Origin: a virus
IMG/VR virus record: IMGVR_UViG_3300030109_004745
Location: 9,007-45,354 of that record
DNA length: 36,348 bases
Strand: one strand, 5' to 3'
Program-made: the position numbers and the translations under genes
The notes under the pieces: model-generated
What the model saw: the letters and a program-made list of their open reading frames with translations, nothing else
What the model was told of the DNA's origin: nothing
The model's database searches: none
Part shown: in pieces, positions 1,303 through 25,650 of the stretch
How positions within the stretch are numbered: the first letter of the stretch is position 1
Layout of the letters: every line of letters begins with the position of its first letter

Positions 1303-3483
1303 GTGAGTGACCACTTTGAGAAGAGCTGGCAGGACATGATGGCCAGTATTGGCTATCCACTTACTGAGGGCGGCACACTTGAGGGCATGAATCCAAGAGC
1401 TCAGATGAGAGGTCATCGAGTAGACCCTGCCGGAGCTGTGGCATATGCACTTAGAGACGAACCGAGTGGTAAGGGTCAGAAAGCGACTGAGGGCTCCGAA
1501 GAACGATTTAGAGACCCAGATTTTACATCTAAGAAGGGGCGTTTTGATACTGTTGTCCAAGATCGTAGTTTAGCACCGTTCAATGTGAGAGGATTCAGGA
1601 ACAATCAACTATTCGGCAATAGAAGACTTCCATCTCCTACAATAACGGAAGAGGGATTAGACCCCTTTGGCTCAGGTATGCTATCTCTTCAGAGAAATAT
1701 CAGAAGTCCAGCTGGCAAAAGAAGGATGCAGACACTTGGAGCTACCAACATACTCCCCCTGTTGAACCCCCGTGTTCAAATTGACAGGAAGAAGCAGGTT
1801 GCAGCTATGGGTGGCGACAAGAACGAGCACCTGTGGTCAGCTGGTGACTTAGACCAAGACAGGATGCTTAATCTCCTGAGTGGCGATGAGGAGCTTGATC
1901 TGGGCATGGAAGGCGTCAGCGTCGCTAGAGGTCCGTTCGGTGACGCTATGGTCATGGATGACAAGACCGGATTACCACTGCCACATCTCGCATACTCCGT
2001 GTTTGACTTGAAAGACCCGGCCAAGACGAAAGGCAGGTGGAGACCCGACAACCGACTCTTCAGAGATGTCGATGCCGGTCAAGACTGGAGGGAAACGATA
2101 ACCGGGCCCAAAAACAAGGAAGGCAGAATCACGGGTTCGATAGACCCCGTTCTAAGAATACCTGTGCCCCTTGAAGGCGGTGGTGTTGGCATCCCAAGAT
2201 TCACCGATGACTCAGGATATAGGTTTGAAGGCATACCCGTCCCCATGAATTTTGCAGCTCACGAGGGTGAATTGGGGCTTGAAAGAGGCGTATCCACTGG
2301 ATCGAAAGGGATATTCTTCAGGCCCGAAGACCTGACCGATGCTGGCAGGGACGTGTTTGACACAGCTAGGCGTGGCGATGTGATACGCCTGTCGGGTGAC
2401 AGCTTCGAGGATGCTTGGGATTTAGCGAAGGCTCGCTTCCCCGGCAGGAGAAGGGAATGGGGACAACCCGGAGAGATGTTCTTTTGGGAGAGCAAACTTG
2501 GTGGAAAGCTACCCCCAGCTGTAGCATATGCTAAAGGGGGGGGCGGAAATAGGGACATTTTTGACTACGTAGAGGTCAATCCCGACAAACTCGAACAACT
2601 CATAGGCCCAAGAGAGGACAGATTCGTCCCTGACTACCCGCTTGAAGGCATGGAAATACCACGTTTTAGTGGCTCACAGAAAGAAGCTGATCAATTAGCT
2701 CTATTCGGCAACCCGAACAAGATGCCGGGGATTTCAATGCTCGATATGCCCATGCACACCTGTCACATAACTGGAAGCGGTGCTTGTGAGGCTTGTTATG
2801 CTGCACAGAACAAAATGGCATTCAATCCCGCACAGAGGAAGTATTATCGGAATAAATTAGCTTCATTGGAGGATTTACCGGGAATGATGTCGGCAATTCA
2901 AGAGAGAATGTATGACAGGGCCATGAAGACAGCTGATTACAGTAGAAGTGCGAATCCAGATATCCGAGGTAAGGGGTTCATTCGGCACAAGGCATCGGGA
3001 GACTTTGGAAGCCCCGAAGAGTTTTCAGCGGTTTTTGACCTTCTACAACAACAGAGCCCTGAAGAGCTCAGGGACTTGAGGCATTGGATATCCACACGGC
3101 AGTATCCGTATCTCATGGAAGCTATGGAGGCCAGAGGCGGCCCTCAAGAGGACTTCCTACCTGAGAACGTGAACATTAGAGTATCACTACCTCCGACTAA
3201 CAGGATGCCAAGTAAGTTTAGTGATCTGGAGTTAAACCCAGCTGTTTCAACTTCTGGCTTCATCCCCAAGGAGTTTGCCGTTCCTTCTGACATGAATGAG
3301 GTGTGTCCAGCTACGATCCACGGCAATCAACAGAAGTGCGATGAAGTTATGGACCCTGATACCGGACTCTTGGGTTGCAGAAGGTGCTTCAGAAGAAAAG
3401 CACCTGTAAATTACTTAGAGCACGGTAGTAGATTGAATGATATTCTGGAGAGGCAGTTTGCCCGTATGACTCAGAACGAGTGA
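1303..3483 (+). CDS. Two-part protein with C-terminal GP88-like cysteine domain and two FxxAW motifs
   Basis: A 726-residue protein with a GTG start, beginning SDHFEKSWQDMM (tag variant). Residues 1-365 are hydrophilic and unrecognised. At residues 368-376 a second tag copy, FEDAWDLAK, sits inside the chain as if a second protein had been joined there. The C-terminal part (about 480-700) resembles the phage 'gene product 88' family: C487, C495 and C498 in C-x-x-C-Y-A, the R-H-x-x-S-G-D-F signature (R561 to F568), and a late cysteine cluster C668, C679, C692, C695. That family has no established biochemical function to my knowledge; the cysteines suggest a metal or iron-sulfur site (inference). 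GTG is chosen because it puts the tag at the N-terminus; no strong ribosome-binding site precedes it. Confidence 0.75.
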   Translation: MSDHFEKSWQDMMASIGYPLTEGGTLEGMNPRAQMRGHRVDPAGAVAYALRDEPSGKGQKATEGSEERFRDPDFTSKKGRFDTVVQDRSLAPFNVRGFRNNQLFGNRRLPSPTITEEGLDPFGSGMLSLQRNIRSPAGKRRMQTLGATNILPLLNPRVQIDRKKQVAAMGGDKNEHLWSAGDLDQDRMLNLLSGDEELDLGMEGVSVARGPFGDAMVMDDKTGLPLPHLAYSVFDLKDPAKTKGRWRPDNRLFRDVDAGQDWRETITGPKNKEGRITGSIDPVLRIPVPLEGGGVGIPRFTDDSGYRFEGIPVPMNFAAHEGELGLERGVSTGSKGIFFRPEDLTDAGRDVFDTARRGDVIRLSGDSFEDAWDLAKARFPGRRREWGQPGEMFFWESKLGGKLPPAVAYAKGGGGNRDIFDYVEVNPDKLEQLIGPREDRFVPDYPLEGMEIPRFSGSQKEADQLALFGNPNKMPGISMLDMPMHTCHITGSGACEACYAAQNKMAFNPAQRKYYRNKLASLEDLPGMMSAIQERMYDRAMKTADYSRSANPDIRGKGFIRHKASGDFGSPEEFSAVFDLLQQQSPEELRDLRHWISTRQYPYLMEAMEARGGPQEDFLPENVNIRVSLPPTNRMPSKFSDLELNPAVSTSGFIPKEFAVPSDMNEVCPATIHGNQQKCDEVMDPDTGLLGCRRCFRRKAPVNYLEHGSRLNDILERQFARMTQNE

Positions 3484-3548: not shown

Positions 3549-3701
3549 ATGAGCCGACACGTTTCTGTCGTTATGCAGGACGAATTATTCCGTAGAATGG
3601 AAAAAGAAAGGGGAAGAGAATCTAAGTCGTCATACGTGAATCATGCACTTCAGCATTATTTTCGGCTACTAGATGAACTGAAAAGGGAAGGAAAGATATG
3701 A
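3549..3701 (+). CDS. Ribbon-helix-helix (CopG-like) DNA-binding protein
   Basis: A 50-residue protein with the size and pattern of a ribbon-helix-helix repressor: a short N-terminal beta strand (HVSVVM, residues 3-8), helix 1 (residues 10-20), a turn with S-K-S-S-Y (residues 25-29) and helix 2 (NHALQHYFRLLDELK). In this family the strands of a dimer pair and insert into the DNA major groove. The final ATGA (3698-3701) overlaps the start of the next gene. It is the first gene of the GTPase/membrane-protein module, so it may control that module and perhaps itself through CTGACAGG. Fold assignment is by pattern; DNA target is inference. Confidence 0.75.
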   Translation: MSRHVSVVMQDELFRRMEKERGRESKSSYVNHALQHYFRLLDELKREGKI

Positions 3702-4156
3702 AGCCAAGCCAAACAACACCAATGTGGAGCCCACAACCAATGGAAACAACGAATAGAGTAGATGTAAATCTTATTGCTATGCTGTTGTGGCAGTCGTTAC
3801 TGACTGGTACAGCTGTAGGTATATCTCACATGGGGTGGTATCTATCAGATGCTCCCGCCGGAGAGATGGGGTTGCAGTATGGTTTGATCGCGTTCGGTTT
3901 CTTATGCACGTCTATGGTTCTGTTCCAAGTGGGGGGCGTTAGGGACAGTATGGCCATGAGAGCTGAGTTCTCAAAGGAGGCGAGCTATGACAAGTGGTTC
4001 AGGCAGCAGATGCAAATGCAAAACAGAAGGATGCAAAAACAGCAATACTACACCGAGATGCAACAGCAGATGCAAGTAATGCAAGCACAATCAGAGGGCC
4101 GTGACGTATTTGGCCTACCAAACGCCCCGAACTCTGAGGACGAGCAGCAGTCCTAG
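3698..4156 (+). CDS. Two-pass membrane protein with Gln/Met-rich coiled-coil tail
   Basis: A 152-residue protein with two hydrophobic spans, about residues 24-43 (LIAMLLWQSLLTGTAV) and 59-78 (GLIAFGFLCTSMVLFQ), separated by a short acidic loop. The C-terminal half (85-140) is a long hydrophilic helix rich in Gln, Met and Arg, likely a coiled coil. No signal peptidase site or catalytic motif is seen. It starts inside the stop of the ribbon-helix-helix gene and precedes another small membrane protein and the GTPase. A plausible role is a membrane anchor or receptor for the neighbouring cytosolic proteins (inference from position). Confidence 0.8.
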   Translation: MKPSQTTPMWSPQPMETTNRVDVNLIAMLLWQSLLTGTAVGISHMGWYLSDAPAGEMGLQYGLIAFGFLCTSMVLFQVGGVRDSMAMRAEFSKEASYDKWFRQQMQMQNRRMQKQQYYTEMQQQMQVMQAQSEGRDVFGLPNAPNSEDEQQS

Positions 4157-4174: not shown

Positions 4175-4396
4175 ATGTGGCCATTTACTACAAGACAAGA
4201 ACGCCAAGCAGCAGAAATGGCTCAGATGCTAGCCGAAAACTCATACGAGCGAAAGATGGAGAGAATCGCCGGCTGGGTCCGAACGACTGTCGCTCTGATT
4301 GTTGGTGTGGCAGGGACGTTCGCATTGTTGATCATACTAGACGAGTTGGGCACTTCGCCTATTGGCGTCTGGGAATACCTGAAAGACCACGTCTAG
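4175..4396 (+). CDS. Single-pass membrane protein
   Basis: A 73-residue protein: an amphipathic charged N-terminal helix (residues 6-30), then one hydrophobic span (about 36-55, RTTVALIVGVAGTFALLIIL) and a short acidic tail. GGGTGG lies about eight bases upstream of this ATG. A longer frame through the same DNA starting at 4165 gives an Arg-rich, non-membrane sequence of unnatural composition and is rejected as a shadow. Topology by the positive-inside rule would place the N-terminus in the cytoplasm. Function unknown. Confidence 0.75.
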   Translation: MWPFTTRQERQAAEMAQMLAENSYERKMERIAGWVRTTVALIVGVAGTFALLIILDELGTSPIGVWEYLKDHV

Positions 4397-4409: not shown

Positions 4410-5138
4410 ATGAGTGCGGTTATAGCGGGCCATCTTTTGATCGGGTCTATTTCTGCATTGCAGAAGATGTATAGAATACTAAGGCCATACAAAGTAGGCA
4501 TATATGGCCCTAGTATGACTGGAAAAACCACTCTTGACCAATATTTGACGGTTCCCGGCGACATTGACCCCATACCTGTTGAAATGCGAACTTCACACGC
4601 AATGGTCAATGGAAGGCCAAAGCTTCCGAAGCCACACCGCAAGCTAATTCGTTGGAAAAAGGATAGAGTTCCAATAAGTAACGCTGATGTAGCTGGTCAG
4701 GCACAATTCAGAAATCTTTGGATCGAAGATATGTTTTCCAGAAAGTGTGAGATAGTAATATTCATGGTTGACCATCGCGTTTTGACCAGTCCGTCGTTTC
4801 TAAAAGAGTCATTAGCCTCATTCAAGTATCTAATAGACAATATCACCAGAACGGATGTTAGCACAGTCATATCAAGAAAGGCCAAAAAAACGGCTAGGTC
4901 TACTTATTCCCCCAAGGTTTTCTTATTTTTGATAAACAAAATGGACGTTTGGTGGACTCCCGAAGCCAATGTACTATGGGCTAATCAGCTACAACGTGAA
5001 CATCCGATAGTGGTTCCATTTAGATCAGAATTAAGAAGGCTCAGAAAAAAGGGGATACGAGCGGAGATAGATGCTATTTCTGCCCAACATGGCGTAAATG
5101 TAGAAAAGGTCTTATTATCCATTGTAGAACTTCTCTGA
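4410..5138 (+). CDS. Arf/Ras-superfamily small GTPase-like protein
   Basis: A 242-residue protein with the ordered signatures of a small GTPase: G1/P-loop GPSMTGKTT (residues 33-41), G3 ADVAGQAQFRNLW (92-104), G4 NKMD (176-179) and G5 SAQ (224-226). The G3 segment closely resembles the Arf/SR-beta form D-V-G-G-Q-x-x-x-R-x-L-W; the P-loop also resembles MglA-type GTPases. Residues 2-24 form a hydrophobic/amphipathic helix, reminiscent of the Arf membrane-binding helix. An insertion of Lys/Arg-rich sequence lies between the G3 and G4 regions (about 145-165). Such proteins switch between GTP and GDP states and recruit partners to membranes; that it does so here, with the membrane proteins on either side as partners, is inference. 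GTPases of this kind are unusual in virus genomes. Confidence 0.85.
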   Translation: MSAVIAGHLLIGSISALQKMYRILRPYKVGIYGPSMTGKTTLDQYLTVPGDIDPIPVEMRTSHAMVNGRPKLPKPHRKLIRWKKDRVPISNADVAGQAQFRNLWIEDMFSRKCEIVIFMVDHRVLTSPSFLKESLASFKYLIDNITRTDVSTVISRKAKKTARSTYSPKVFLFLINKMDVWWTPEANVLWANQLQREHPIVVPFRSELRRLRKKGIRAEIDAISAQHGVNVEKVLLSIVELL

Positions 5139-5165
5139 CAGGACTATCTTTATTTGGCTGACAGG
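5135..5165 (+). promoter_or_regulatory. Tandem CTGACAGG sites at the GTPase/5172 junction
   Basis: CTGACAGG occurs at 5135-5142 (including the GTPase stop codon) and at 5158-5165, 23 bases apart, with the AT-rich CTTTATTT between them. The second copy extends to GGCTGACAGGG, an 11-base match to the site before the ribbon-helix-helix gene. A promoter with paired operator sites for the downstream genes is the likely reading, but the TATA-like element is somewhat close to the ATG at 5172. Confidence 0.4.
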
Positions 5166-5171
5166 GTTGGG

Positions 5172-6161
5172 ATGGCTAACATGAACCTCAGTTCGATGTG
5201 GCCGCTCGGCAATTCCAACGCGAAACTATCCGGTTTGACCGATGAGCAATTGAAGGTTGTTTCTGCTAATACTGGTATTTCTCTCAATATATTAAAAGCT
5301 CAACAAAGGGCAGAAATGGCAAATGCAGGAGCTTCTGGCGGTTTTGGAGGTCAAGACGAGGTGGTGCCCACTGTAGAAGTGGCCTTGATCCAAGACCCTA
5401 AAAATCCTAAAAAGGCCAGAAAAAAGAATATCAAGAAGCTCAGAAAGGCTCTAAGGCCGCCAAATTACTTCTTAGGCATTTGGAGAATTTATCGCTACAA
5501 TGGCACCTTTGAGTGTGCGTGTTGCGGGACGGATGTCAGAAGATTCTTAGAAGGGGATAACGATTATGCACAGATAGTCGATTACGACGTTGGCTTGAGT
5601 TTAGCCGACATATACTGGTTTGACGAAGAAACGGGCAATTCTTTGATACCACATGCAAGGACAAGAGGAGACCATGGTGATGAGATGAATAGTACCTTGT
5701 GCCCTGCACATCTTCACATATATCACACATTGAGAAAGCTCGTACAAGAGCAAGAAATGGAAGAGGACGGTTTGCGTCCTGTTGCCAAAGGGACGAAATT
5801 CTTGAAAGTCCCCGGCATGAGCACTTTAATGGGCGGAATGTCCAGTTCTAATAATCGAGCAACTACTGACTCATTGGTGAAATATCAACCATTTTTCAAG
5901 ATGATTAGACAGGATGCTGAACATAAGAAGGGAATAGTCCTACAGCAATACCCTAATCCCATAACAGGAGTGGCCGACCTCGTGACAGTGACATTTGACC
6001 TCAGAGCTTTACAAATTGAAGACGCTCTGTTACAGAGAAGCACTATGGGCATGGGAGCTCCGATCCCGTCCGGTGTAATGCCTCCTATGCCTAATGCAAA
6101 CATGCCACAAGCACCTACAACTCCCCAAGTACCTAATAATGAGGCACGGACGGGACAATAA
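5172..6161 (+). CDS. Hypothetical protein with central Cys/His cluster
   Basis: A 329-residue protein from the ATG at 5172; an in-frame TTG at 5154 would add six residues but has no better upstream signal. Residues 1-70 are small-residue-rich, then a Lys/Arg-rich stretch (KKARKKNIKKLRKALR) leads into an aromatic segment. C115, C117 and C118 (CACCG) and, later, C177-P-A-H180-x-H182 with H185 could form a zinc-binding site. The C-terminal 50 residues are Met/Pro/Asn-rich and disordered, like those of its downstream neighbour. No family recognised. It belongs to the GTPase/membrane module by position; an effector or adaptor role is conceivable but unsupported. Confidence 0.8.
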   Translation: MANMNLSSMWPLGNSNAKLSGLTDEQLKVVSANTGISLNILKAQQRAEMANAGASGGFGGQDEVVPTVEVALIQDPKNPKKARKKNIKKLRKALRPPNYFLGIWRIYRYNGTFECACCGTDVRRFLEGDNDYAQIVDYDVGLSLADIYWFDEETGNSLIPHARTRGDHGDEMNSTLCPAHLHIYHTLRKLVQEQEMEEDGLRPVAKGTKFLKVPGMSTLMGGMSSSNNRATTDSLVKYQPFFKMIRQDAEHKKGIVLQQYPNPITGVADLVTVTFDLRALQIEDALLQRSTMGMGAPIPSGVMPPMPNANMPQAPTTPQVPNNEARTGQ

Positions 6162-6179: not shown

Positions 6180-6821
6180 ATGGGTTGGTTTTTCAACAGA
6201 AACGAGACGACAACACCCGCTCAAACTTTTGGTGCTGCTAGTAACCCTATGGGGGGATATGGTGGAAACATGGGAATGGGTGCTATGGGTGGATATGGAA
6301 TGCAGCAAAACGGTATGATGGACCCGATGCAAATGCAGATGATGGGGCAGAATCCCATGATGCAACAAATGGCAAATGACCCTGTAATGGCTACTTCACG
6401 ACTGTTGCAGTATTACGATCCGGTCTCGGCGTTTATTGTGTCTCAGAATTTTGCTACTACAATGAATCTTGTGGGTGAAGTAATGACCATGGCTTTGAAG
6501 GACTTCTTTGCCAATGTAAAACTCACGACCGACGAAGACGGAAAAATATCTCTTGATATGACTACTTTGCCGAATAATATCGCAACCATGTCCGCAGAAA
6601 ACCTAGCTTTGACTCTTCAGGGGCTTCAAGGAGCTGCTAATCAACAGCTACAGATGAACTCCCAGCAAACGCAAATGCTTCTACAAGCTCACAACCCTAT
6701 GTTAAGCGGGCAAAACCAACCCGGCTTCTTTGGTAGTATGTTAGGCACTATCCTTGGCCAACAGATGCAACAGGGTGGTATGCCATCGATGGGAACAATG
6801 GCCGCAGGAGCATTGGTGTGA
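6180..6821 (+). CDS. Met/Gly/Gln-rich hypothetical protein
   Basis: A 213-residue protein whose first 75 residues are dominated by Met, Gly, Gln and Asn (for example GGYGMQQNGMMDPMQMQMM), followed by a more regular helical core at about 78-155 with a beta-like acidic segment (LTTDEDGKISLDM) and a Gln-rich helix, then another Gly/Met/Gln-rich end. Low complexity at both ends suggests disorder or self-association, as in condensate- or filament-forming proteins (inference). AAAGGAATGTGAT upstream gives a weak ribosome-binding match. No known family. Confidence 0.8.
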   Translation: MGWFFNRNETTTPAQTFGAASNPMGGYGGNMGMGAMGGYGMQQNGMMDPMQMQMMGQNPMMQQMANDPVMATSRLLQYYDPVSAFIVSQNFATTMNLVGEVMTMALKDFFANVKLTTDEDGKISLDMTTLPNNIATMSAENLALTLQGLQGAANQQLQMNSQQTQMLLQAHNPMLSGQNQPGFFGSMLGTILGQQMQQGGMPSMGTMAAGALV

Positions 6822-6831
6822 GGTAGATAAC

Positions 6832-7092
6832 ATGGAAAGAAGAGATGACAAACGACCTAACAGTCAGCCATATGGGACGAACATGATGGACACCACCATG
6901 GAGATGTTCGCACCGAATAAGATGCTTGTAGAGAGCGCGACCATGATCTTCATTATTGCATTCTCTCTTTTGATTACCGCTGTGATGCTATGGAAAGGCC
7001 CTAGTATGGACCCGACATTCTCGATGCTAGCTATCTTTGGTCTGTTCTTCACCTTCTTCTTAGCAGTCAGACAGTATGCAGCTTTTCGCTGA
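6832..7092 (+). CDS. Two-pass small membrane protein
   Basis: An 86-residue protein. The start at 6832 is set by GAGGTAG ending five bases upstream; longer frames from 6754 run through the preceding gene and have an unnatural composition. Residues 1-34 are hydrophilic, then two hydrophobic spans at about 36-54 (ATMIFIIAFSLLITAVMLW) and 63-79 (FSMLAIFGLFFTFFLAV) flank a short loop. It is the third small membrane protein in this module. Function unknown; a partner of the GTPase or its neighbours at the membrane is possible. Confidence 0.8.
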   Translation: MERRDDKRPNSQPYGTNMMDTTMEMFAPNKMLVESATMIFIIAFSLLITAVMLWKGPSMDPTFSMLAIFGLFFTFFLAVRQYAAFR

Positions 7093-7103: not shown

Positions 7104-7526
7104 ATGTCGATGGCGGGGCCTTACCGTCCTCCGACAACAGCGGGCTATAGACGAGAAAGAACATATTATAACCCACTTGATGTAAATAGAGACGGTAAGG
7201 TAAATCTAAAGGATTTGAAAGCAGCTAAAGACAAAGTAGTGAATAAGCTAGACCAAGACGGAGATGGCGATTTTGATCTACAAGACCTTCACGCTGTAGC
7301 TGATAAACTAATAAATAGAAAAAAGACATGTTCAAAGTGTGGTAAGAAGCTCAAGAAGAAGAGCAAGTATCAAACGGGGGTATGTGTGGAATGCTACAGG
7401 AATCCTTCTGATGAGGAGAGATGCATAGCGGTGACTTCGTCAGGAAATCGATGCCAAAGACGCATATCCGACAAATCCCACAAAGGTTATTGTGGCATAC
7501 ATATCAGAAAGTATGAAGCACAATAG
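7104..7526 (+). CDS. EF-hand pair fused to zinc ribbon and C-x-x-H zinc motif
   Basis: A 140-residue three-part protein. Residues 26-37 (DVNRDGKVNLKD) and 50-61 (DQDGDGDFDLQD) are canonical Ca2+-binding EF-hand loops; the first has the dockerin-like form. C76, C79, C94 and C97 form a zinc ribbon inside a lysine-rich stretch. The end has C107, C117, C130 and H133 in the pattern C-x-A-x-T-x-x-G-x-x-C followed by Y-C-x-x-H, a short zinc motif known from many small phage and bacterial proteins. The combination suggests a calcium-sensing or calcium-stabilised adaptor (inference). An ATG at 7110 is an alternative start. There is no clear ribosome-binding site. Confidence 0.85.
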   Translation: MSMAGPYRPPTTAGYRRERTYYNPLDVNRDGKVNLKDLKAAKDKVVNKLDQDGDGDFDLQDLHAVADKLINRKKTCSKCGKKLKKKSKYQTGVCVECYRNPSDEERCIAVTSSGNRCQRRISDKSHKGYCGIHIRKYEAQ

Positions 7527-7556: not shown

Positions 7557-8267
7557 ATGAGTGGTCGGCGGACTCGCAAAACTTGTCCATTCTGCCAGCA
7601 TCCAGAAAGGGATGAGCTTGAAGCTAATTTTCGAGCAGGAGTCATCGATCTCAATATATTGGATAGAGATCAGGGGTGGCCAAATGGCACATCGCACACT
7701 CATATGAGAAGGCACAGCGGTCAATTCACCAATCAAAGCAATGTTGAATGTCCTATATGCACACACCCCGAAAGAGCAGAGATAGAGGCTTCTATACTAG
7801 ACCAAAGAGCTAGTATAATGGATTTCTCGGAAGAGTTGGACATTGCCGAGTCTGCAATAAGCTATCATATGGAAAAACACACCAAGCCTCTGATACAGCG
7901 TCAAGCTAACATAGAGGTTTTACCTAGAGCTATACAGACTACAACAGACAGCTTGGAAAGAGTCGAAAGAAACATGAATCGAATGGATAACATCTTATCA
8001 CTTCATTTGGATCGTGTTGAAGAACAGATGATTAACTCTCCAGACTTAGTATCTACGAAAGACCTAGACCTTGGTATAAAATTGCACAGAGAGGTGCGCG
8101 AAACTCTTGGAGAGCTCGCTAAATGGATGGATAAGCTCAAAGAAGTCGATAAGGTTGAAAGCGTGTCTGTGATTACCATCATGCAACAGTATTTCTCTGA
8201 GAAGGCTCCAGATGAATGGAGAACGATTAGACACATGCTAGCTGAAGCAGGAGTGATGGACGAATGA
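7557..8267 (+). CDS. Tandem CPxCxHP zinc-finger DNA-binding protein, terminase small-subunit candidate
   Basis: A 236-residue protein with two copies of an N-terminal module: C10-P-F-C13-Q-H15-P-E-R followed by a helix-turn-helix-like region ending in H-M-R-R-H, and C65-P-I-C68-T-H70-P-E-R followed by a clearer helix-turn-helix (ELDIAESAISYHMEKH). C-P-x-C-x-H-P-x-R linked to a helix-turn-helix is frequent in phage DNA-binding proteins annotated as terminase small subunits. The rest is a long helical region (135-225) suited to oligomerisation. It overlaps the next gene by ATGA. Sitting several genes before the large terminase, it is the best candidate for genome recognition, but a transcription factor cannot be excluded. 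Confidence 0.7.
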   Translation: MSGRRTRKTCPFCQHPERDELEANFRAGVIDLNILDRDQGWPNGTSHTHMRRHSGQFTNQSNVECPICTHPERAEIEASILDQRASIMDFSEELDIAESAISYHMEKHTKPLIQRQANIEVLPRAIQTTTDSLERVERNMNRMDNILSLHLDRVEEQMINSPDLVSTKDLDLGIKLHREVRETLGELAKWMDKLKEVDKVESVSVITIMQQYFSEKAPDEWRTIRHMLAEAGVMDE

Positions 8268-8775: not shown

Positions 8776-10059
8776 ATGGTTTCAGCGAATCCTCGTGATA
8801 TTGGCAACCTATACCGTCCAAGGACTCAGGAGTTCACGGGTGGACACAACCCTAGAGAAGTTCTCGACCTTCAAATCAATCCGAATGAGGATGATGACGG
8901 TTTATCTCACAATTCAAGAAATACCACAGAAGACAAGGAAAGTAGGGAGCAAAGAGACCCTAAGAAAAGAAGAGACAAAGCTCTGCGTGAACTAGCTCCT
9001 GCCTTGCAGCACATATCCATCAAACCTGAGACAATGGATGACGTAGTTACGAGGTCTCCTCGCTTTGATGAAGAAAACAAGCTCCTCGAATCGGGGTTGG
9101 GCGTTGATCTTGGAGCTAGAGGTTTGTCATTGGCTGTCGGCGCGAACCGTGGCCCAGCTAGGAGCGATACGCCGTATGTCACATATGGGCGTGACAATTC
9201 ATTGGGTGCCTTTGGTAAAGAGGACCTTCAGAAGGCTAAAAGGAAGTATAGAGGTAGGAAGTATTCCGAAGATGAGGAATCCGAAGAAGAAGAGAAGAAA
9301 TCTAAGCGTTCTAACAAACGCAAGAAAAAGAGGTCTGGTAGGAAGGGCAAGAAAAAGGCAGGGGGTAAGCTTAGAGGGTCGGCTAGTCGTGATCCGAAGA
9401 GGACTTCAAGGACTCGTGCCGCAGCTGTTAGGCATACGGTAGACAGAGATAGCAAGAATCAAAAGTTTGGGAGACAGCTTAGTCGTCGCTTCGGTTTGGG
9501 GTCTTCTACTGAGCTACCTCTCAGGCTCAGAGACCCGATAGCATATGCACGTAAGTTAGCTAATGAGAAGCTCAGGCGAGAGACTGGTGCCTTACCTCGT
9601 CAATTTACGCCACACCGATCAGCCGGTGCTGGTGTTTCAGAAGGACAGACCCGTGGGGGCTACATCGGAGGTTCAAAAGGGGCAGGGACTCGTATGGCCT
9701 CTCCTCCACAAATGGGTACTAGCATGAGGTCGGGAGCTGCTCTTGATAGATTGTTAGCAGGAGCAGTAGGAGACCCGCTCGGAACTAGCGACCCCCTCGT
9801 TTCTAAAATGAAAGCAGGAAGTTTGTCAAGAACTGAAATTATCGCACTCAAAAAGAAAATAGAGGCTCTTCTCCGTAAATTAGACAAATTAGCGAAAAAC
9901 TCACCAGAACTCGAAGAAAATGCAAAGAGAGGGGCACAGCCATCAGAAAATATAGCAACTTCGCCCACAGGAGGAACCAAATTGGAACCGGGCTACGAAG
10001 CTTGGCAGTTTGAAGACCCCACTATCAGTTTCGAGAGTGGAGTGGTGGGTAGGAAATGA
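8776..10059 (+). CDS. Large low-complexity protein with polybasic tract
   Basis: A 427-residue protein preceded by the weak ribosome-binding sequence GGGGGT. Residues about 160-200 switch from an acidic run (SEDEESEEEEK) to a dense Lys/Arg run (KRSNKRKKKRSGRKGKKK), which would bind nucleic acid or other polyanions strongly. The C-terminal 150 residues are Gly/Ser/Pro-rich with one leucine/lysine helix at about 350-375 and end near YEAWQFEDP. No family is recognised. The position between the small- and large-terminase candidates and the charge pattern suggest a genome-associated internal virion protein (inference). Confidence 0.75.
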   Translation: MVSANPRDIGNLYRPRTQEFTGGHNPREVLDLQINPNEDDDGLSHNSRNTTEDKESREQRDPKKRRDKALRELAPALQHISIKPETMDDVVTRSPRFDEENKLLESGLGVDLGARGLSLAVGANRGPARSDTPYVTYGRDNSLGAFGKEDLQKAKRKYRGRKYSEDEESEEEEKKSKRSNKRKKKRSGRKGKKKAGGKLRGSASRDPKRTSRTRAAAVRHTVDRDSKNQKFGRQLSRRFGLGSSTELPLRLRDPIAYARKLANEKLRRETGALPRQFTPHRSAGAGVSEGQTRGGYIGGSKGAGTRMASPPQMGTSMRSGAALDRLLAGAVGDPLGTSDPLVSKMKAGSLSRTEIIALKKKIEALLRKLDKLAKNSPELEENAKRGAQPSENIATSPTGGTKLEPGYEAWQFEDPTISFESGVVGRK

Positions 10060-11978
10060 TTGGACGCTCTTGGGTGTTTGACTTTGATAGATATGTCATC
10101 CAGAAGGGCTATGGTGCCTTTGACATGGATGCTTTGGCACAAGCTATTCTAGCTAACCCAGATGAAGGGCTAAGCCTTCTCTTTAGCGACCCATCAATAA
10201 GGATAAATGTCTTGGAAAGCGAACTGACTGGTGTCGAGATAGATGCCATTGATATGGCCTTGAAGACTACCCTCGATCCAGAGTTTCAACGAGTCGCTCA
10301 GGCTATACACGACGGTCCAACGAATCCTGAGTACAATAATGCCATAGCTCTCGCAATACGTCAGGGAGCTCCATTGATTAACAGTGGAATAGAACAACAA
10401 AATAGGATGAATGCAAATGCAGGAAGGGGGTTTGAGAGTATGGACCCTGCATTCACCATAGACCAAAACGGGGTGACTGTAAATTCGCCTTGGCGAAGAG
10501 GGGCTATGGCTCAAATGGGTGCACAGATAACGGATAAGAAAACACGGGCCGTCAATCCCTTTGATAAAAGTGGAACTTTGGTTACGCACATTCTTTCCCC
10601 TAAGATGTCCAAAAACACACCAGAGGGGTGGGCGCGTCCCTATGAAGAAGCTCTTCAATCGATGGGAGTGGATAAGGGAGGCAGGAGAGATAGGTACATC
10701 AGAGCACACAAAGACCCTTCTAAGCGAAGAACGGTTAGCTTTCATGACGACACACAATTTCTTCAATTCAAAGATTCGATTCTCACGTCCTCACAAGTCA
10801 ATCCACAGCCATCAACAGAAGAAGCAGCAAGTGCGGCGGTGGGTGATTACCTAGCTACGAACAATGCATTCACCACCACTGGTCTTCATCATCACGCATT
10901 AGAATCCACATTAGCTAGGAACATGAGAGCAGATGACCCGGAGATGCCGATACTCGATGAGCAGTTAGAACAGGAGCGGGTAGAAGATCAACTCAAAGAG
11001 CCAACCGCACCACCAGTTCCTGATTTTAATCAGATGAGGTCAATAATACACCCAGAAGATAGAGATCAGAAATGGCTTAACAACATGCAGAGCAATACGA
11101 ATGCATATCTTATGAACAACGCTACAGGTAAAATCAATCAAAATGTTGTTGATTATCTGACTTCTCCAAAACACAACATGTCTGAAGAAGAAGCTCGTAA
11201 GCTCATTACAGACGTTAGATTTGGAAGAGGTAGCGGTGGCGTTACTCGCAGGTTCATGGACGCTTTGACTCAGCACCATTCGTCTAGCGGTATAATGCCC
11301 GGTCACTACGAAGGAGATGCAGAATCTACCGCTGATCCTATATCAACTACTGATAGTCGTCAACCTGTTGTAGAACAACCACCAGTACAGACACCAGACC
11401 CAACGGCTCCAATTCCTCCTGCTTTTCCTCCTCCTGCTGCTCCAATACCGATACCAGACCCCAATCCTCCACCTCCACAGGGCGTCATGCCTCCTCCAAC
11501 TAGAACTAGAGCTGCTCCTCCTGTACCTGACCGAAGTAGGCTATTGCCTATCGAGCAATCACCTGCACTTCGTAGATACCTCATGTCTACCATGCCCGGT
11601 ATAAAAAGAGATATACCATCGTCCGACACACCTGCACGGGGCAGTGGAGGCGATAGCATAGAAGAACAAATCGCTCAAATCATGTCTCAACTAGAAAACG
11701 GCAATCCAAATGTGTCTAAGAGTGCAGCTTCAGATATCGAAGGATACCTAGAAATGGTTCAAATGGAGCTCGCTAAGGCAGTAATTGAGGATAAATTTGA
11801 TGTGCCCGATTTCAATATAGATTCTCCGACTGACATAGCTATGATGGGCGCACACATTCAAAGACCGACTACAGATGTGATCGGTATATTGTTCACAAAA
11901 GGGGATTGGCGGAATATTGCTAAGACGATGGGGATTGAGCATGAAAAAGTACAGTTGGTGAAGGTGGCGTTCTCATGA
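10056..11978 (+). CDS. Large hypothetical protein with proline-rich linker
   Basis: A 640-residue protein overlapping its upstream neighbour by ATGA. The N-terminal 130 residues look globular and helical, residues 140-430 are mixed and hydrophilic, and residues about 435-495 are an extended proline-rich linker (for example APIPPAFPPPAAPIPIP) at DNA positions near 11370-11530. A helical C-terminal domain (about 535-640) ends with a beta-like strand (KVQLVKVAFS). No catalytic motif, cysteine cluster or membrane span is evident. Linked two-domain architecture and position favour a minor structural protein; function unknown. Confidence 0.75.
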   Translation: MIGRSWVFDFDRYVIQKGYGAFDMDALAQAILANPDEGLSLLFSDPSIRINVLESELTGVEIDAIDMALKTTLDPEFQRVAQAIHDGPTNPEYNNAIALAIRQGAPLINSGIEQQNRMNANAGRGFESMDPAFTIDQNGVTVNSPWRRGAMAQMGAQITDKKTRAVNPFDKSGTLVTHILSPKMSKNTPEGWARPYEEALQSMGVDKGGRRDRYIRAHKDPSKRRTVSFHDDTQFLQFKDSILTSSQVNPQPSTEEAASAAVGDYLATNNAFTTTGLHHHALESTLARNMRADDPEMPILDEQLEQERVEDQLKEPTAPPVPDFNQMRSIIHPEDRDQKWLNNMQSNTNAYLMNNATGKINQNVVDYLTSPKHNMSEEEARKLITDVRFGRGSGGVTRRFMDALTQHHSSSGIMPGHYEGDAESTADPISTTDSRQPVVEQPPVQTPDPTAPIPPAFPPPAAPIPIPDPNPPPPQGVMPPPTRTRAAPPVPDRSRLLPIEQSPALRRYLMSTMPGIKRDIPSSDTPARGSGGDSIEEQIAQIMSQLENGNPNVSKSAASDIEGYLEMVQMELAKAVIEDKFDVPDFNIDSPTDIAMMGAHIQRPTTDVIGILFTKGDWRNIAKTMGIEHEKVQLVKVAFS

Positions 11979-13231
11979 TTGAATCATATCAGAACCGCAG
12001 CGTATCGGATATGCTCTTCAAGCATTTCGTAAAAATGACTCCACAACAACAAGAAGCTATTGATTTCGCATCTAATGCTCAATTGCCTCGGAAGGAATCA
12101 AAGAGAACGATGTCCGATGAGAACCTAAGAGCGGGAGTAGAGAAGGTAACTGGGTCAACAACAGCACCAAGGGGTAACTTTACTGAGAGATTAAATGCAC
12201 TCAAGCCACAAGCTACGCCCTCACCAGAACCTAAGTTTGATGGCAGTATGTTCAATCTACCACAGGCAAAGGGACCTGAAATGCCTGAGAATGCACCCGA
12301 AGGAACACAAATGATCTCCGGTAGAGCCGACTACAGTAATGTCGCACCGACCAATAATCCTGAGAAAGAAGCAGCAAAACCTGAGTTTGGTGGCTTTGAC
12401 TCAGAGAGCTTTCGAGATATGTTCGGTCAACAGGTCGAAAATGCACCTTATCAGGATAGGAGAATTAAGTCAGGCGGTGCTTTCAGAAACACTGCCGATG
12501 CGACAATGGACCGCCTTTCGGCCATAAGAAGGGGCAAACTACCAACCGCTGCCAATGCAGCTGAGAGTCAGAGGCTTTCCACTCGTATGACGCCAGACCA
12601 ACAAGCTAGGAGAGTACGAACTCAACAATCTACTTTAGAACGGGAGAAAAGAGCTAGGGCTACAAACAGACAGGACACTAAAATGAATACTCTGATGAGC
12701 AGAGCTCCGGGTTCTCCATTCGCGGGAACGAAACCACGAGAGGTTCAAGGAGCTTTGAAAGCGGGCCTTAAAGAAGGTTCTGAACCAGCCACAGCAGGAT
12801 CAACGACGCAAACAGGAACACAAACAGAAACTGAGCAGCCATCCGTAGAAGAAGCGACAAGAGTCCTTTCCACAGGGAACGGAAACCAGCGAAACGCAAG
12901 AGGTGGAGGCGCACTGTTTGGGGGTAAGGACGGTGGCGTAAAAATACCCGGCGTCAGGGCAGCTGCAAACTACTCAGCACGGAACCCCGGAAAGACAGGT
13001 GCCATGTTAGGGTTGCCAGCTGCTTACGCCATGTTCGGCGGGGCTCTTGAAGGTGGAATAAATTTAGCTAGAAGAGGTTTTGACGCTATTCAACAAAGAC
13101 AGAATCCAACAATAACACGTAGTCTCGCAGAATACAACCCCGAACTATCTATTTTGCTTAAGACGCAAGCAGGTATGAGGGCACGTCGAGACATTCGATC
13201 AACGGAGGTCATTCGGTATGCCTACGGATGA
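11975..13231 (+). CDS. Hypothetical structural-type protein
   Basis: A 418-residue protein starting within the previous stop codon (ATGA). It is hydrophilic, rich in Ala, Arg, Gln and Thr, with a Thr/Gln/Glu-rich low-complexity stretch near residues 270-290 and a small-residue hydrophobic patch near 335-355 (GKTGAMLGLPAAYAMFGGAL) that could be a single membrane-interacting helix. The C-terminus is basic. No domain is recognised. It overlaps the next gene by 14 bases. By context it may be a minor virion or ejection protein, since such proteins often combine disorder with one glycine/alanine-rich helix (inference). Confidence 0.75.
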   Translation: MIESYQNRSVSDMLFKHFVKMTPQQQEAIDFASNAQLPRKESKRTMSDENLRAGVEKVTGSTTAPRGNFTERLNALKPQATPSPEPKFDGSMFNLPQAKGPEMPENAPEGTQMISGRADYSNVAPTNNPEKEAAKPEFGGFDSESFRDMFGQQVENAPYQDRRIKSGGAFRNTADATMDRLSAIRRGKLPTAANAAESQRLSTRMTPDQQARRVRTQQSTLEREKRARATNRQDTKMNTLMSRAPGSPFAGTKPREVQGALKAGLKEGSEPATAGSTTQTGTQTETEQPSVEEATRVLSTGNGNQRNARGGGALFGGKDGGVKIPGVRAAANYSARNPGKTGAMLGLPAAYAMFGGALEGGINLARRGFDAIQQRQNPTITRSLAEYNPELSILLKTQAGMRARRDIRSTEVIRYAYG

Positions 13232-14549
13232 TACGTTTGATGTTGCTTGGGGTCAAGTATCCAATGACAATCTCCAGAAATTTAGTTTTTTTGAGGGCCT
13301 TGCTAGGGATTTTGGGTTTGAAGACTATGCAAATCGAATGAGAGACCGAGAAGAAGCTCAGCAGCAACTCCAAGCAAGTCTCCGGGCAGGTCTTGTTGAT
13401 TCAAACACACCATATCAGAACATGGTGGCAACACAACAGGCCATGTTCGCAGAACAAGAAGCAATGAGACAAGCACAACTCCGTGAACAATTAGCTGCAC
13501 TCCAAGCTCAACTGGCCGAACAAGAGTCTTCAGAGGCAGAAACCGTAGGTGACACTATGGGGCAACCTCCTGTACCTTCTGACGACGAAACCGAAGCAGA
13601 AGAAATAACCACAGTCGAAAGCGCGGAAGAAGTGATGGGTACTCCGCCGGAAGCCCCTTCCGACAAAAGGACGAAAGAGATTGGTGAGTCTTTTGACCTT
13701 GATATCGAACCAGACCCTTCATTGGGGCAATTATCTACTGATTACGAGTTCAATGCTATTGATATGATCACAGGGGCCAATGAGCTCGCAGATAAGAGAA
13801 CTGCAAATGAGCATTTGACAAGTACAATCTACAATTCTAGTCTTGGGGATGAAAAGGCACTGAGGGTGCTATACGAACTTAGCAACCCAGCGGCCTTTCA
13901 AGGAGCTGTAAGGACGACCGGGATTCCTGAAAGCACATTGAAAGATATGCTAAAAGAGGCTACAAAGAAAGCCCAAGGAACAGTGGATAGCCGAAGAGCG
14001 AAGGAAAGTCAAGATAGCTTGGCCGGAGAAACTGATTCGGTCGATGTTACAATGACAGGGGGGTCGCCCGAAGAAGATAGAACAACGGTTAAGGTAGGCG
14101 GCAAGAAAGGAGCCATAGAGCTACCTCTCAAATTCACTGAAAACCAAATAGATAACGTCCGGCCCGACGTGTTTGAAACCGATGATAAAGGCGATGTAGT
14201 TACAACAACGGGTAGAAAGGGCCCCACAAAGAAAAAATCCGATGATATAGTCTCAGATGTTTGGAGCGTTGTCAAAGACCCCTTCGCAAATCCTTTTTAC
14301 AATCGGAATGCTTTTGCTATGACTGACCAAAAACCACCGGAGGTGACATATGATGATACTCCTACATTCGAGGTAGATACTAGCTTACTCAAAAAAGCGG
14401 GTCCAGAGAATGCACTCAAAGAGGCCGGTTTCGATAGCAGATCGGGTGATGATGTTAGCTTATTGCCAACGTCTATTTTTACACGGGACGATACTCCTTC
14501 TGTAGATAATATGAGTTTGTTGCCAAAGGGGTGGAAAGCAGATGAGTGA
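13218..14549 (+). CDS. Acidic hypothetical protein with FxxAW-type N-terminus
   Basis: A 443-residue acidic protein beginning MPTDDTFDVAWGQVSNDN, a recognisable member of the recurring tag set (F-x-x-A-W). Residues 50-100 form a long Gln/Ala/Glu-rich helix suited to coiled-coil formation, residues 100-160 are very acidic, and the remainder is Asp/Lys/Thr-rich with few hydrophobic segments. The fold is not recognised. It overlaps the large terminase by eight bases, and both stops and starts are tightly packed. A scaffold-like or terminase-associated role is possible but not shown. Confidence 0.75.
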   Translation: MPTDDTFDVAWGQVSNDNLQKFSFFEGLARDFGFEDYANRMRDREEAQQQLQASLRAGLVDSNTPYQNMVATQQAMFAEQEAMRQAQLREQLAALQAQLAEQESSEAETVGDTMGQPPVPSDDETEAEEITTVESAEEVMGTPPEAPSDKRTKEIGESFDLDIEPDPSLGQLSTDYEFNAIDMITGANELADKRTANEHLTSTIYNSSLGDEKALRVLYELSNPAAFQGAVRTTGIPESTLKDMLKEATKKAQGTVDSRRAKESQDSLAGETDSVDVTMTGGSPEEDRTTVKVGGKKGAIELPLKFTENQIDNVRPDVFETDDKGDVVTTTGRKGPTKKKSDDIVSDVWSVVKDPFANPFYNRNAFAMTDQKPPEVTYDDTPTFEVDTSLLKKAGPENALKEAGFDSRSGDDVSLLPTSIFTRDDTPSVDNMSLLPKGWKADE

Positions 14550-15957
14550 AGCCGTTCAGAAACTGACCAGCAAAGTCGATTTCGACATGGGTCGGCGCGA
14601 TTTTAGATTCTTTTTTGAGGACATATGCGGTTTTCAATTAGCAGATTTCCATAAAGAATGGTATGAGATGGCACAGAACAATAGCAAGATATGCGTCATA
14701 GCCAGCCGTGACCACGGCAAATCGGTTTTCTTTAGATGCTATCTATTATGGAGGATGGCTTACAACCCCAATACTGAGGTTCTTTTCTTCAGCCACAGCC
14801 AGCATCAATCTATAGACCACATGGCTAAGATGGATGAACTCATCATGACAACCCCCGCTCTAGCTCATTTGAAGCCAAAAAGAGGTTGGGCAAAGCAGCT
14901 ATTCAAGATGACTAACAAGTCATCGATCAGGGCTATGTCTGTCGGTAAGGCTGTTCGTGGTGCTCACCCTGATATCGTGGTCCTTGACGACATATTGTCA
15001 AGTGAAGCCCAAACTCAGCTCAAAGCCATAGCCACATGGTTCTATACAGCTTTACTACCCGTTCTTCACCACACCGCTCAACTATGCATAGTAGGTACGC
15101 CTTTTTCATATACAGATTTGTATTCGGAGTTAAAAACTCTTGACGGTTATTCGGTGGGAGAATATCCAGCTATCAATGAAGCCACGGGTGATCCTTTATG
15201 GCCGGAAAGATGGAATCTTGATGCGTTAAATGCTAGAAAGGGAGAAATGACCTCTATTGCATTCACAAGAGAGTATCTGTGTAAGCCAATAGCTAGTGAG
15301 TCTAGCTTGTTCCCCGAAGAGGTGCTAGACCGAGTGAAAGACGATAGCTTGTCTTTGTCCTATTATCCAGACCCCGATGAGAGTCTGAACTACTATATTG
15401 GATGGGACCCGGCAATCAGTGCTGACCGTAGAGCAGATTATACCTGTATGATTGTTATTGGTATGAATGAGAATAGGCATAAACGGGTCATACACGTACA
15501 CCATGAGAAAAACATGGATTTCAATCAGCAGATCGAGAAGATAATCGAACTCAATGCAAGATTTAATCCTGTTATAATAGAGCTTGAGACGAATAACTTC
15601 GCTATGGCCTTTAATCAAGTATTACAAGAAATTAGTGATCTTCCGATTAAACCATTCAATATGAGTAGAATGAAGAAAGAAGCTCTTATTCACACCTTAC
15701 AATTACACTTTGAACAAAAACACCTCTTAATTCCTTACAAAGATGAAGGAGCTACTAGAAGGCACATGAACGCTCTTCTCACTGAATTATCATATTTTAC
15801 CATGTTAGAGAACGGTAAGATGGAGAGCTTGGGGGCTCATGACGATATGGTCATTGCCTTGGCACTTTCCGTTCAAGCTACAAAAGAGTACAGAGAGAAT
15901 ATTGTGATACTCGATGGAGACACATGGCGTAGTAGATTGGGGTGGGCCGATGCTTGA
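14542..15957 (+). CDS. terL: Large terminase subunit (packaging ATPase and nuclease)
   Basis: A 471-residue protein of normal terminase length. The ATPase domain has a Walker A variant ASRDHGKS (residues 54-61), a Walker B DIVVLDD (144-150, with D149 and D150), and a coupling-type segment VGTPFSYTDL downstream. The RNase H-like nuclease domain has D289 in YYIGWDPAIS (284-293), E347/E349 in IIELETN, and a C-terminal HDDM (433-436). These acidic residues are the expected metal ligands. The enzyme cuts concatemeric DNA and drives it through the portal into the procapsid. It is followed with an eight-base overlap by the next gene and then by portal, the usual packaging order. Confidence 0.95.
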   Translation: MSEAVQKLTSKVDFDMGRRDFRFFFEDICGFQLADFHKEWYEMAQNNSKICVIASRDHGKSVFFRCYLLWRMAYNPNTEVLFFSHSQHQSIDHMAKMDELIMTTPALAHLKPKRGWAKQLFKMTNKSSIRAMSVGKAVRGAHPDIVVLDDILSSEAQTQLKAIATWFYTALLPVLHHTAQLCIVGTPFSYTDLYSELKTLDGYSVGEYPAINEATGDPLWPERWNLDALNARKGEMTSIAFTREYLCKPIASESSLFPEEVLDRVKDDSLSLSYYPDPDESLNYYIGWDPAISADRRADYTCMIVIGMNENRHKRVIHVHHEKNMDFNQQIEKIIELNARFNPVIIELETNNFAMAFNQVLQEISDLPIKPFNMSRMKKEALIHTLQLHFEQKHLLIPYKDEGATRRHMNALLTELSYFTMLENGKMESLGAHDDMVIALALSVQATKEYRENIVILDGDTWRSRLGWADA

Positions 15958-17335
15958 GAAGCGGTATATTGAAGGTATAACGGGCGTAGAGTCCCTCGGT
16001 GATAGTATAGAGAAGATAGCTCCGGCCGTTGCAGCAGCAGGAAAATTAGCAGTAGGGGCAGCCGCAGGAGCAGCTGTTGATTATGGAAAAGACCAGTTGG
16101 TTCAGGCTGCAAAAGAAAGACTATCTGGAAAAGAAAAAGAAGTGGCTACTGCTACTCAAGAGCTTGCTTCTGCTGAGGAACAAGCCAAAAACAACGCGAC
16201 CGTAGAAGCTAACAGGCAGAAAACAGAAGCCGGACAGGGAGTTGGGCTCCGAGGAATGGATAACCCAGAAAGTGATACGCCGGATGGGGACCAAGAAGGC
16301 ACTGAGGTAAATGCGCCAGACAAGACAGGGCTAAATCAAGACCCAAATGAAATCAAGCTGTCAATCGATAGGAATTGGTTCGTCAACAATTTTGGTATGA
16401 CTGGTTCTGAGATGGCCTCTTTACTGATTCTCAAAAACGAATTATCTACATTGGATGCGTTATATCCCTTATTGATACAGGAAAAACAAGCAATATTGTC
16501 TTCCTTCCCCGGTGTTTCCCCTAGTTTAGTAAAAAGTCTCCCATTGACAGATGTGGATTATGACAACCTAAACAGATATTCAGATAGGCTTGGAATCCCA
16601 TTTAGGAGGTTTGTTAAAATGTGGTCAGGTGCAAATGACCCCTCTTCACAATTAAAATCCTATCAAAAGTGGAGAGAAGTTATTGACGCCGATCTTAGAC
16701 TTTCTATGCGCGAGAGAAGCATACTCAAGCAGTGTGCAGACCTCTTATTGACTAGGGGAGCGTTAAACGCGCAGACTCTGAAGTTCAATGGCGTCTCTGC
16801 AAGTCCAGCTGAAATTTCGTCCTTGATAAAGTCGCACGGCTTCCTTTTCGACATAATTTCTGTGGGTGAAGTTAGTAAGTCTGTGGGTAGAGGTCTTTTC
16901 TATGATGTCAAAAGAAGAGATGTCATACTCAAAGACGCTGGTAGATTCATAGCAGGACTCATCGAAAACCATGCAACGGTCAAGTACGATAGTCGTTATA
17001 ACCCCAGATTAGAGCTTAGCTTCTCAGCCCCAACCGCACCTTGGTACGCTACAGCTTTGAACCAAGAGCTTGGGGTCGATGCTGTGACTGCTGCGAGCCA
17101 CGGCCTCTGCATACAGGGAGAAGAAGGAATAAGAAAGGCGTTTGACCTGTCCTATTCACATATAGAGAATCCAAAGACAAACATATCATTGTTAAAGAGA
17201 GCTATAGACGGAGATGATGACGCTATGGTGATTATAACTCATGATTCCCTCAAAAAGAAAGACCAAGTAGCTTTTCTCAAATCAAAAAATATTGGTGTTG
17301 AAGCGTTTGATAAGATCAAGGAGGGCGTGTTCTAA
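15950..17335 (+). CDS. Hypothetical protein between terminase and portal
   Basis: A 461-residue protein. The ATG at 15950 is preferred because it follows GGGGTGGG and makes an eight-base overlap with the terminase stop; an in-frame ATG at 15914 is possible. Residues 15-60 are Ala/Gly-rich with a helix that could touch membranes (AAAGKLAVGAAAGAAV), residues 60-130 are a charged coiled coil and linker, and residues 150-461 are globular. The globular part has a winged-helix-like stretch near 250-330 and a C-terminal alpha/beta segment that faintly recalls LAGLIDADG folds; neither is secure. Terminase-portal intergenic genes are usually packaging or portal-associated. Function unknown. Confidence 0.75.
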   Translation: MLEKRYIEGITGVESLGDSIEKIAPAVAAAGKLAVGAAAGAAVDYGKDQLVQAAKERLSGKEKEVATATQELASAEEQAKNNATVEANRQKTEAGQGVGLRGMDNPESDTPDGDQEGTEVNAPDKTGLNQDPNEIKLSIDRNWFVNNFGMTGSEMASLLILKNELSTLDALYPLLIQEKQAILSSFPGVSPSLVKSLPLTDVDYDNLNRYSDRLGIPFRRFVKMWSGANDPSSQLKSYQKWREVIDADLRLSMRERSILKQCADLLLTRGALNAQTLKFNGVSASPAEISSLIKSHGFLFDIISVGEVSKSVGRGLFYDVKRRDVILKDAGRFIAGLIENHATVKYDSRYNPRLELSFSAPTAPWYATALNQELGVDAVTAASHGLCIQGEEGIRKAFDLSYSHIENPKTNISLLKRAIDGDDDAMVIITHDSLKKKDQVAFLKSKNIGVEAFDKIKEGVF

Positions 17336-25625: not shown

Positions 25626-25650
25626 TCCTACCATTCATATACGATTGAAT

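Follow-up and report, generated by a model that had tools for sequence, protein, structure and literature searches.

Gene content of the locus

The stretch of DNA analysed here (the window, 36,348 nucleotides) corresponds to positions 9007–45354 of an IMG/VR virus record of 45,354 bases, IMGVR_UViG_3300030109_004745. At 4410–5138 on the plus strand, with its ATG at 4410 and its stop codon at 5136–5138, lies a gene for a small GTPase of 242 amino acids, and the neighbouring genes described below are all encoded on the same strand. Their order was read over 134 loci, and transmembrane (TM) segments were called from Kyte-Doolittle hydropathy only. Two genes upstream (gene −2, 3698–4156) is a 152-residue two-TM-like protein with a Gln-rich, coiled-coil-like tail that is found at this place in 122 of the 134 loci; in the window one TM segment lies above threshold and the second is seen by eye. 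Gene −1 (4175–4396) encodes a 73-residue single-TM protein, with orthologous single-TM reading frames directly 5' of the GTPase in related loci, about half of one subgroup falling just below the TM threshold.

On the other side, the 335-residue product of gene +1 (5154–6161; alignment A6) carries invariant Cys/His positions of zinc type, and the 213-residue product of gene +2 (6180–6821) is rich in Gly, Met and Gln; both are present in 134/134 loci. Gene +3 (6832–7092), for a small two-TM protein, is found in 121/134 loci, with two TM segments called in 111 of these 121. Gene +5 (7557–8267; alignment A5; 134/134 loci) encodes a double Cys/His zinc-finger protein with weak helix-turn-helix matches in Pfam, and gene +8 (10056–11978; 131/134) a late protein of 640 residues. 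Further downstream on the same strand are the genes for the terminase large subunit (14542–15957; PHROG 38, E 1.7e-74), the portal protein (17335–18825), the prohead protease (25645–27042) and the major capsid protein (27073–28260; PHROG 24667, E 3.7e-51), which places the GTPase in the late region.

The conserved unit consists of the two-TM protein, the single-TM protein, the GTPase and the Cys/His (zinc-type) protein. This −2/−1/0/+1 block is kept in a divergent Poseidoniales contig (G260:C65, hereafter L433) whose GTPase shares just 31% identity with that of the window: L433 has a gene similar to gene −2, a counterpart of gene −1 at 17294–17503 and a homologue of gene +1 recognised by profile. 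Searches of Pfam, PHROGs and NCBIfam gave no firm function for the neighbours of the GTPase, and no resemblance to a known GEF, GAP or coat protein was seen among them.

Sequence motifs and conservation

The first-pass annotation of this DNA held that all GTPase signatures are present in order, and they can indeed be followed through 4410–5138; the conservation counts given here are based on an alignment of 80 members (A4). The P-loop (G1) GPSMTGKTT lies at 4506–4532, with GPSMTGKT as residues 33–40, and G33, G38, K39, T40 and T41 are invariant in the 80 rows. The switch I-like segment IPVEMRTSH (4572–4598) contains the putative G2 residue Thr61, which is invariant together with I55 and R60, while H63 is kept in 79/80. 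G3 and switch II, DVAGQAQFRNLW (4686–4721, residues 93–104), have D93, G96 and W104 invariant, and correspond exactly to the D-V-A-G-Q-x-x-x-R-x-L-W form that had been reported. G4 follows as NKMD (4935–4946, residues 176–179; N176, K177 and D179 invariant) and a G5-like SAQHG at 5079–5093 (residues 224–228), of which G228 is invariant and the rest variable; D121 is also invariant. The ordered Ras-superfamily/TRAFAC signature of G1 GxxxxGK[ST], G3 DxxG and G4 NKxD is found in 80/80 members. Together with the predicted fold, these motifs strongly support the assignment of the protein as a Ras-superfamily/TRAFAC small GTPase, predicted to bind and hydrolyse GTP.

The position of the catalytic G3 glutamine, Gln97, is variable: Q occurs in 50 members and is replaced by E (18), D (10) or H (2) in the other 30/80. 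This variation suggests that GTP hydrolysis may be slow, or may depend on a partner acting in trans.

A search with the single sequence returned relatives on 14 contigs at 55–84% identity, an alignment-based search brought this to 56 viral loci encoding the GTPase, and a divergent member used as query added about 148 further viral stretches that form a sister group, giving more than 200 viral relatives in total. Synonymous changes approach saturation, dN is low, and in the close pairs with unsaturated dS the dN/dS ratio is about 0.01–0.1; these values strongly support purifying selection, which appears to be strong. The low dN/dS and the invariant residues of the 80-member alignment also mean that the reading frame and its motifs are not due to chance. 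PHROGs holds no family for the protein, and matches there to Sak4 and ferredoxin-oxidoreductase (E 0.01–0.15), which reflect the P-loop or chance, were dropped as identities. As far as the searchable data reach, the protein appears to be a core member of a previously undescribed family of Poseidoniales tailed-virus GTPases; no earlier description was found in the searched literature, prior annotation in key magrovirus papers being possible.

Predicted structure and comparison with the Arf family

An AlphaFold2 model built with alignment A4 reached a pLDDT of 84.1 and a pTM of 0.83. A first run with 14 close homologues had given a poor model (pLDDT 63.6) and was set aside for that with 80. The fold search proposed in the first-pass annotation returned a G-domain: Foldseek against the PDB gave Ras-superfamily GTPases throughout the matches listed (best E 2.8e-8), and the top rows of VIA-align were Arl1, Arl8b, Arl3, Arf1 and Arf6 at Z 16.0–16.4, with 155–173 residues aligned and an rmsd mostly near 2.5, followed by Asgard ArfR at Z 15.7, where rows no more than 1 Z apart count as tied. 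There is no Era/EngA-type structure among the VIA matches listed, although that listing rules out no family, and the matches listed among viral structures are GTPases from giant viruses of eukaryotes. When, independently of the AlphaFold2 model, all PDB sequences were searched by profile, 8oun came first (E 3.8e-6), ahead of Arl proteins and Rab33B; 8oun is an archaeal Arf-type GTPase with Gerdarchaea ArfR1 (8oum) as its sister entry. The modelled fold thus appears closest to Arf/Arl/Sar, a likeness that in itself carries no information on function. Placement with a P-loop family lacking the G3/G4 layout did not come about, both G3 and G4 being present.

The model begins with a hydrophobic helix (residues 2–24; 4413–4481) that leads directly into strand 27–32, the β1 strand of the GTPase. 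The helix, which the first-pass annotation had likened to the membrane anchor of Arf, coincides with conserved hydrophobic columns of the alignment, but it is only mildly amphipathic, does not reach the TM threshold, and has no recognisable lipidation site.

Arf, Arl and Sar1 proteins (PF00025) share with the viral GTPase the fold, the helix directly before β1, and a D-x-[GA]-G-[Q] motif with Leu-Trp downstream. The differences lie in the sequence. The WDxGGQ form of the Arf G3 has no equivalent, as Trp is missing before Asp93 and Gln is found in 50/80 only; the G1–G3 and G3–G4 spacings are 60 and 83 as opposed to 43 and 59 in Arf1; and the myristoylated Gly2 of Arf is replaced in the window by Ser, with no conserved Gly in the viral alignment. 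The Pfam Arf score of the window protein is 17.3 bits against a cut-off of 22.3 (E 0.0035), 8 of 17 records match this family at E up to 1 with none above the cut-off, and the window protein is likewise below the cut-offs for Roc and Ras. Of the label "Arf-like" given on first reading, the small GTPase with a fold nearest to Arf/Arl/Sar is therefore retained, whereas membership of the Arf family is not supported by sequence, in view of the sub-threshold Pfam scores, the missing Trp, the variable Gln and a best host-phylum match to ArvA/OapA instead.

A core gene of marine archaeal viruses

The GTPase is a viral gene and a core late gene of its lineage. Among 293 Poseidoniales genomes, two contain a homologue. 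In the single-cell genome AG-422-I20 it lies on a 106-kb viral contig whose terminase, portal, capsid and protease proteins are 89%, 80%, 81% and 70% identical to those of the window, and the second is on L433 (128 kb), with the 31% identical GTPase and the same flanking gene types. L433 may itself be a virus or a provirus; its divergent GTPase, used as query, found no viral kin. Genes +5 and +1 (alignments A5 and A6) were used as anchors in a search of viral contigs because circularity was to be avoided, and the GTPase was present in 71/71 and 75/75 loci, respectively, that had enough upstream sequence; both genes being neighbours of the GTPase, these counts gauge co-conservation inside the lineage. 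Of contigs anchored on the terminase and having 10 kb upstream, 20/20 encode the GTPase (11 with the GTPase inside the flank and 9 already in the 56-locus set). Such counts describe a core gene rather than a stray acquisition from a host.

The link to Poseidoniales is provided by the AG-422-I20 contig, which has the same terminase, portal, capsid and GTPase module, a co-sorted free virus being possible. Long viral records with the GTPase encode a chaperonin in 19/21 cases and PolB in 14/21, and both genes have been described for Poseidoniales viruses (PMC5332604, PMC10768690), for which reason we call these viruses magrovirus-like. They resemble the magroviruses (order Magrovirales) as large marine tailed viruses with chaperonin, PolB and a Poseidoniales link, and the term is meant informally, on gene content and host link. 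Seven long records near the window (L019, L027, L034, L035, L038, L040 and L054) have no Pfam DNA_pol_B match, which the sister group does have; they possibly use another replicase or host replication.

The remark that such GTPases are rare in viruses of prokaryotes agrees with the searchable data: two divergent members found no match in the 50,697 phage records of INPHARED, and the viral structures listed belong to giant viruses. The Ras/Rab-like GTPases of giant viruses are also virus-encoded proteins of the Ras-superfamily fold, but they come from another virus realm with eukaryotic hosts, are about 10–20% identical, and those listed are annotated as Ras/Rab/Ran-like.

Cellular relatives

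Alignment A4, searched against 390 genomes from the host phylum, consistently picked out a single family at weak scores (best E 2.8e-6, over residues 14–72). Two of its members were examined and share an operon with genes for OapB (PF09846) and OapC (PF09845), confirmed by Pfam on one of them, and the family is identified as ArvA/OapA because of these operon partners. Within the host phylum, ArvA/OapA appears to be the closest cellular match, with a likeness confined to 52 columns that span the helix, the P-loop and an IPxExR switch I (hhalign E 7.9e-9). The family includes HVO_3014 of Haloferax and Thermoplasmatota copies (L245–L263), and has in common with the viral protein the N-terminal helix, a [KR][IV]GIYGPxxxGKTTL P-loop, and switch I, where the viral IPVEMR aligns with IPHETR of ArvA; in both cases a Cys/His protein is encoded nearby. 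Total length and motif spacing are also similar, but the spacing is filled by different inserts, and as these sit at different places the likeness is not taken as homology. The G3 motifs differ, being Era-like DTPG in ArvA/OapA and D[IVL][GA]G[QED] in the viral GTPase, and the G3 region is without a match. Neither OapB nor OapC was found by Pfam among the window neighbours or three viral +1 proteins, whereas a cellular ArvA operon used as control matched both families.

ArvA is present in 52/116 genomes of the host phylum, but in 0/79 of Poseidoniales, and the Poseidoniales genomes sampled gave no Arf-family match at 1e-5; the virus would thus bring a kind of switch apparently missing from its host order. 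Other genomes of class Poseidoniia encode Ras-like GTPases (L264–L273) that share with the viral protein the Ras superfamily and a D[IV]AGQ G3, and that match it over the full length in hhalign (E 2.3e-6); these lack the N-terminal helix, have 179 residues, and were not found in the Poseidoniales genomes sampled. A small-GTPase tree does not separate an ArvA from an Arf origin: with Sar1, HRAS, Era and Arf1 as references, of which Arf1 alone was checked against the PDB, the viral proteins group with ArvA at 71/81, which is unsupported, on a viral branch of 3.9 changes per column, and a tree constrained to group them with Arf/Sar is not rejected (p-AU 0.25).

Proposed function and alternatives

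Eukaryotic Arf proteins are membrane-bending GTP-binding switches; membrane switches built on small GTPases are seen as a trait of cells. An Arf-shaped late GTPase beside small membrane proteins suggests that the viruses of this lineage bring their own membrane-remodelling machinery. We propose, with a probability of roughly one half, that the GTPase is a late switch in the style of Arf and ArvA, organizing a viral complex at the membrane that serves assembly or exit. It would be made late, together with the virion proteins; on binding GTP its hydrophobic helix would insert into the host cytoplasmic membrane, where it would organize a complex with the −2 two-TM, −1 single-TM and +3 two-TM proteins that remodels the membrane for assembly or exit, the adjacent Cys/His protein acting as its partner or regulator. 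We infer the nucleotide cycle, the helix insertion, the partnership with −2, −1 and +1, and the step that is served. By analogy with what has been suggested for ArvC, the +1 protein could be a partner of the GTPase, no homology between the two having been found.

A predicted membrane-remodelling role is plausible in the light of the invariant motifs, the Arf-like model, the profile match to 8oun, the core status and the kept neighbourhood. A further point in its favour is that the best match in the phylum, ArvA, acts in vesicle formation in Haloferax, where fewer vesicles are produced on its deletion and more on its overexpression, and where an Arf1-like release of the helix has been proposed (PMC10927574). 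Against it stand the mild amphipathicity of the helix, the replacement of Gln in 30/80 members, the absence of a GEF-, GAP- or coat-like neighbour, and the occurrence of TM proteins in ordinary lysis cassettes too.

A tentative alternative, and one to be kept in mind, is that the GTPase serves head or tail morphogenesis, either as a nucleotide-driven assembly factor or as a minor component of the virion; the helix would then dock on a viral protein instead of a membrane. Its fixed place in the late module upstream of the terminase, portal, protease and capsid genes would fit this, as would its universality in the lineage, which structural genes share, and the conserved late proteins encoded by genes +1 and +8; its nearest fixed 5' neighbours are, however, small membrane proteins, and its closest matches, in fold as well as in cellular sequence, are membrane-acting GTPases.

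The same small TM proteins, flanking the GTPase in a late operon, might instead be holin-like pores or disrupt the envelope, with the GTPase setting the time of their firing. We consider such a timer of lysis or exit unlikely: gene −2 does have a weak PHROG holin match (E 0.087), which may be chance, but no lysis gene was recognised, no lysis system is known to use a small GTPase, and the block of GTPase and zinc-type protein is kept even where the GTPase has diverged to 31% identity.

It seems very unlikely that the protein acts by mimicking or blocking a host GTPase of targeting or division; the Ras-like single-domain layout and a catalytic Gln as variable as in sequestering mimics could be read in this way, but the gene is a universal part of the late module and not a variable host-takeover gene, and the lack of Arf matches at 1e-5 and of ArvA (0/79) leaves no obvious counterpart in the Poseidoniales genomes sampled. 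A contaminating or mis-assembled cellular housekeeping GTPase, foreseen as a possible refutation and resting on the two homologues among 293 Poseidoniales genomes, has a negligible probability and is refuted, since one of these is on the 106-kb contig, which also encodes the terminase, portal, protease and capsid protein of this type of virus, the second is set in the viral gene block described above, and hundreds of viral contigs share the locus.

The membrane switch can be extended to a stronger reading, which we regard as rather doubtful at present: that the tailed viruses of Poseidoniales possess a full module for membrane vesiculation, driven by the GTPase and similar in function to the ArvABC vesicle system of haloarchaea, for non-lytic or vesicle-assisted exit or membrane-bound assembly. 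The module would comprise the GTPase, the small membrane proteins and the zinc-type regulator, in hosts without ArvA, and, if real, would be the first case of a small-GTPase membrane switch among the core genes of tailed viruses of prokaryotes. The host archaea are abundant in the ocean and the virus lineage is very abundant. The question bears on the assembly and cell exit of tailed viruses of uncultured marine archaea, and four or five synthetic genes would be enough for a direct test of a GTPase-driven viral membrane step.

Further features around the GTPase block

Several other features were observed in the flanking regions. Upstream of the module, window positions 1303–3483 encode a 726-residue protein with a Pfam GP88 domain (E 7.9e-10) that is kept in about two-thirds of the loci. 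The 140-residue protein at 7104–7526 has two EF-hand-like Ca-binding loops (DVNRDGKVNLKDL and DQDGDGDFDLQDL) and a zinc-ribbon-like tail, and occurs in a minority of related loci (28 family members). The C-terminus of the gene +8 product (10056–11978) contains a GDWRNIAKTMG segment that is LysM-like by eye and has no Pfam or PHROG match. In L433, two genes that appear glycosyltransferase-like by eye lie just 5' of the GTPase block (11681–15266), and the single-TM gene and the GTPase are separated by a gene for a 271-residue protein whose tail is a long Asp/Glu repeat (17485–18300). The GTPase and gene +1 are separated by about 0.8 kb in contig 3300030102_006326 (L361), the sole such case among the 40 spacings listed.
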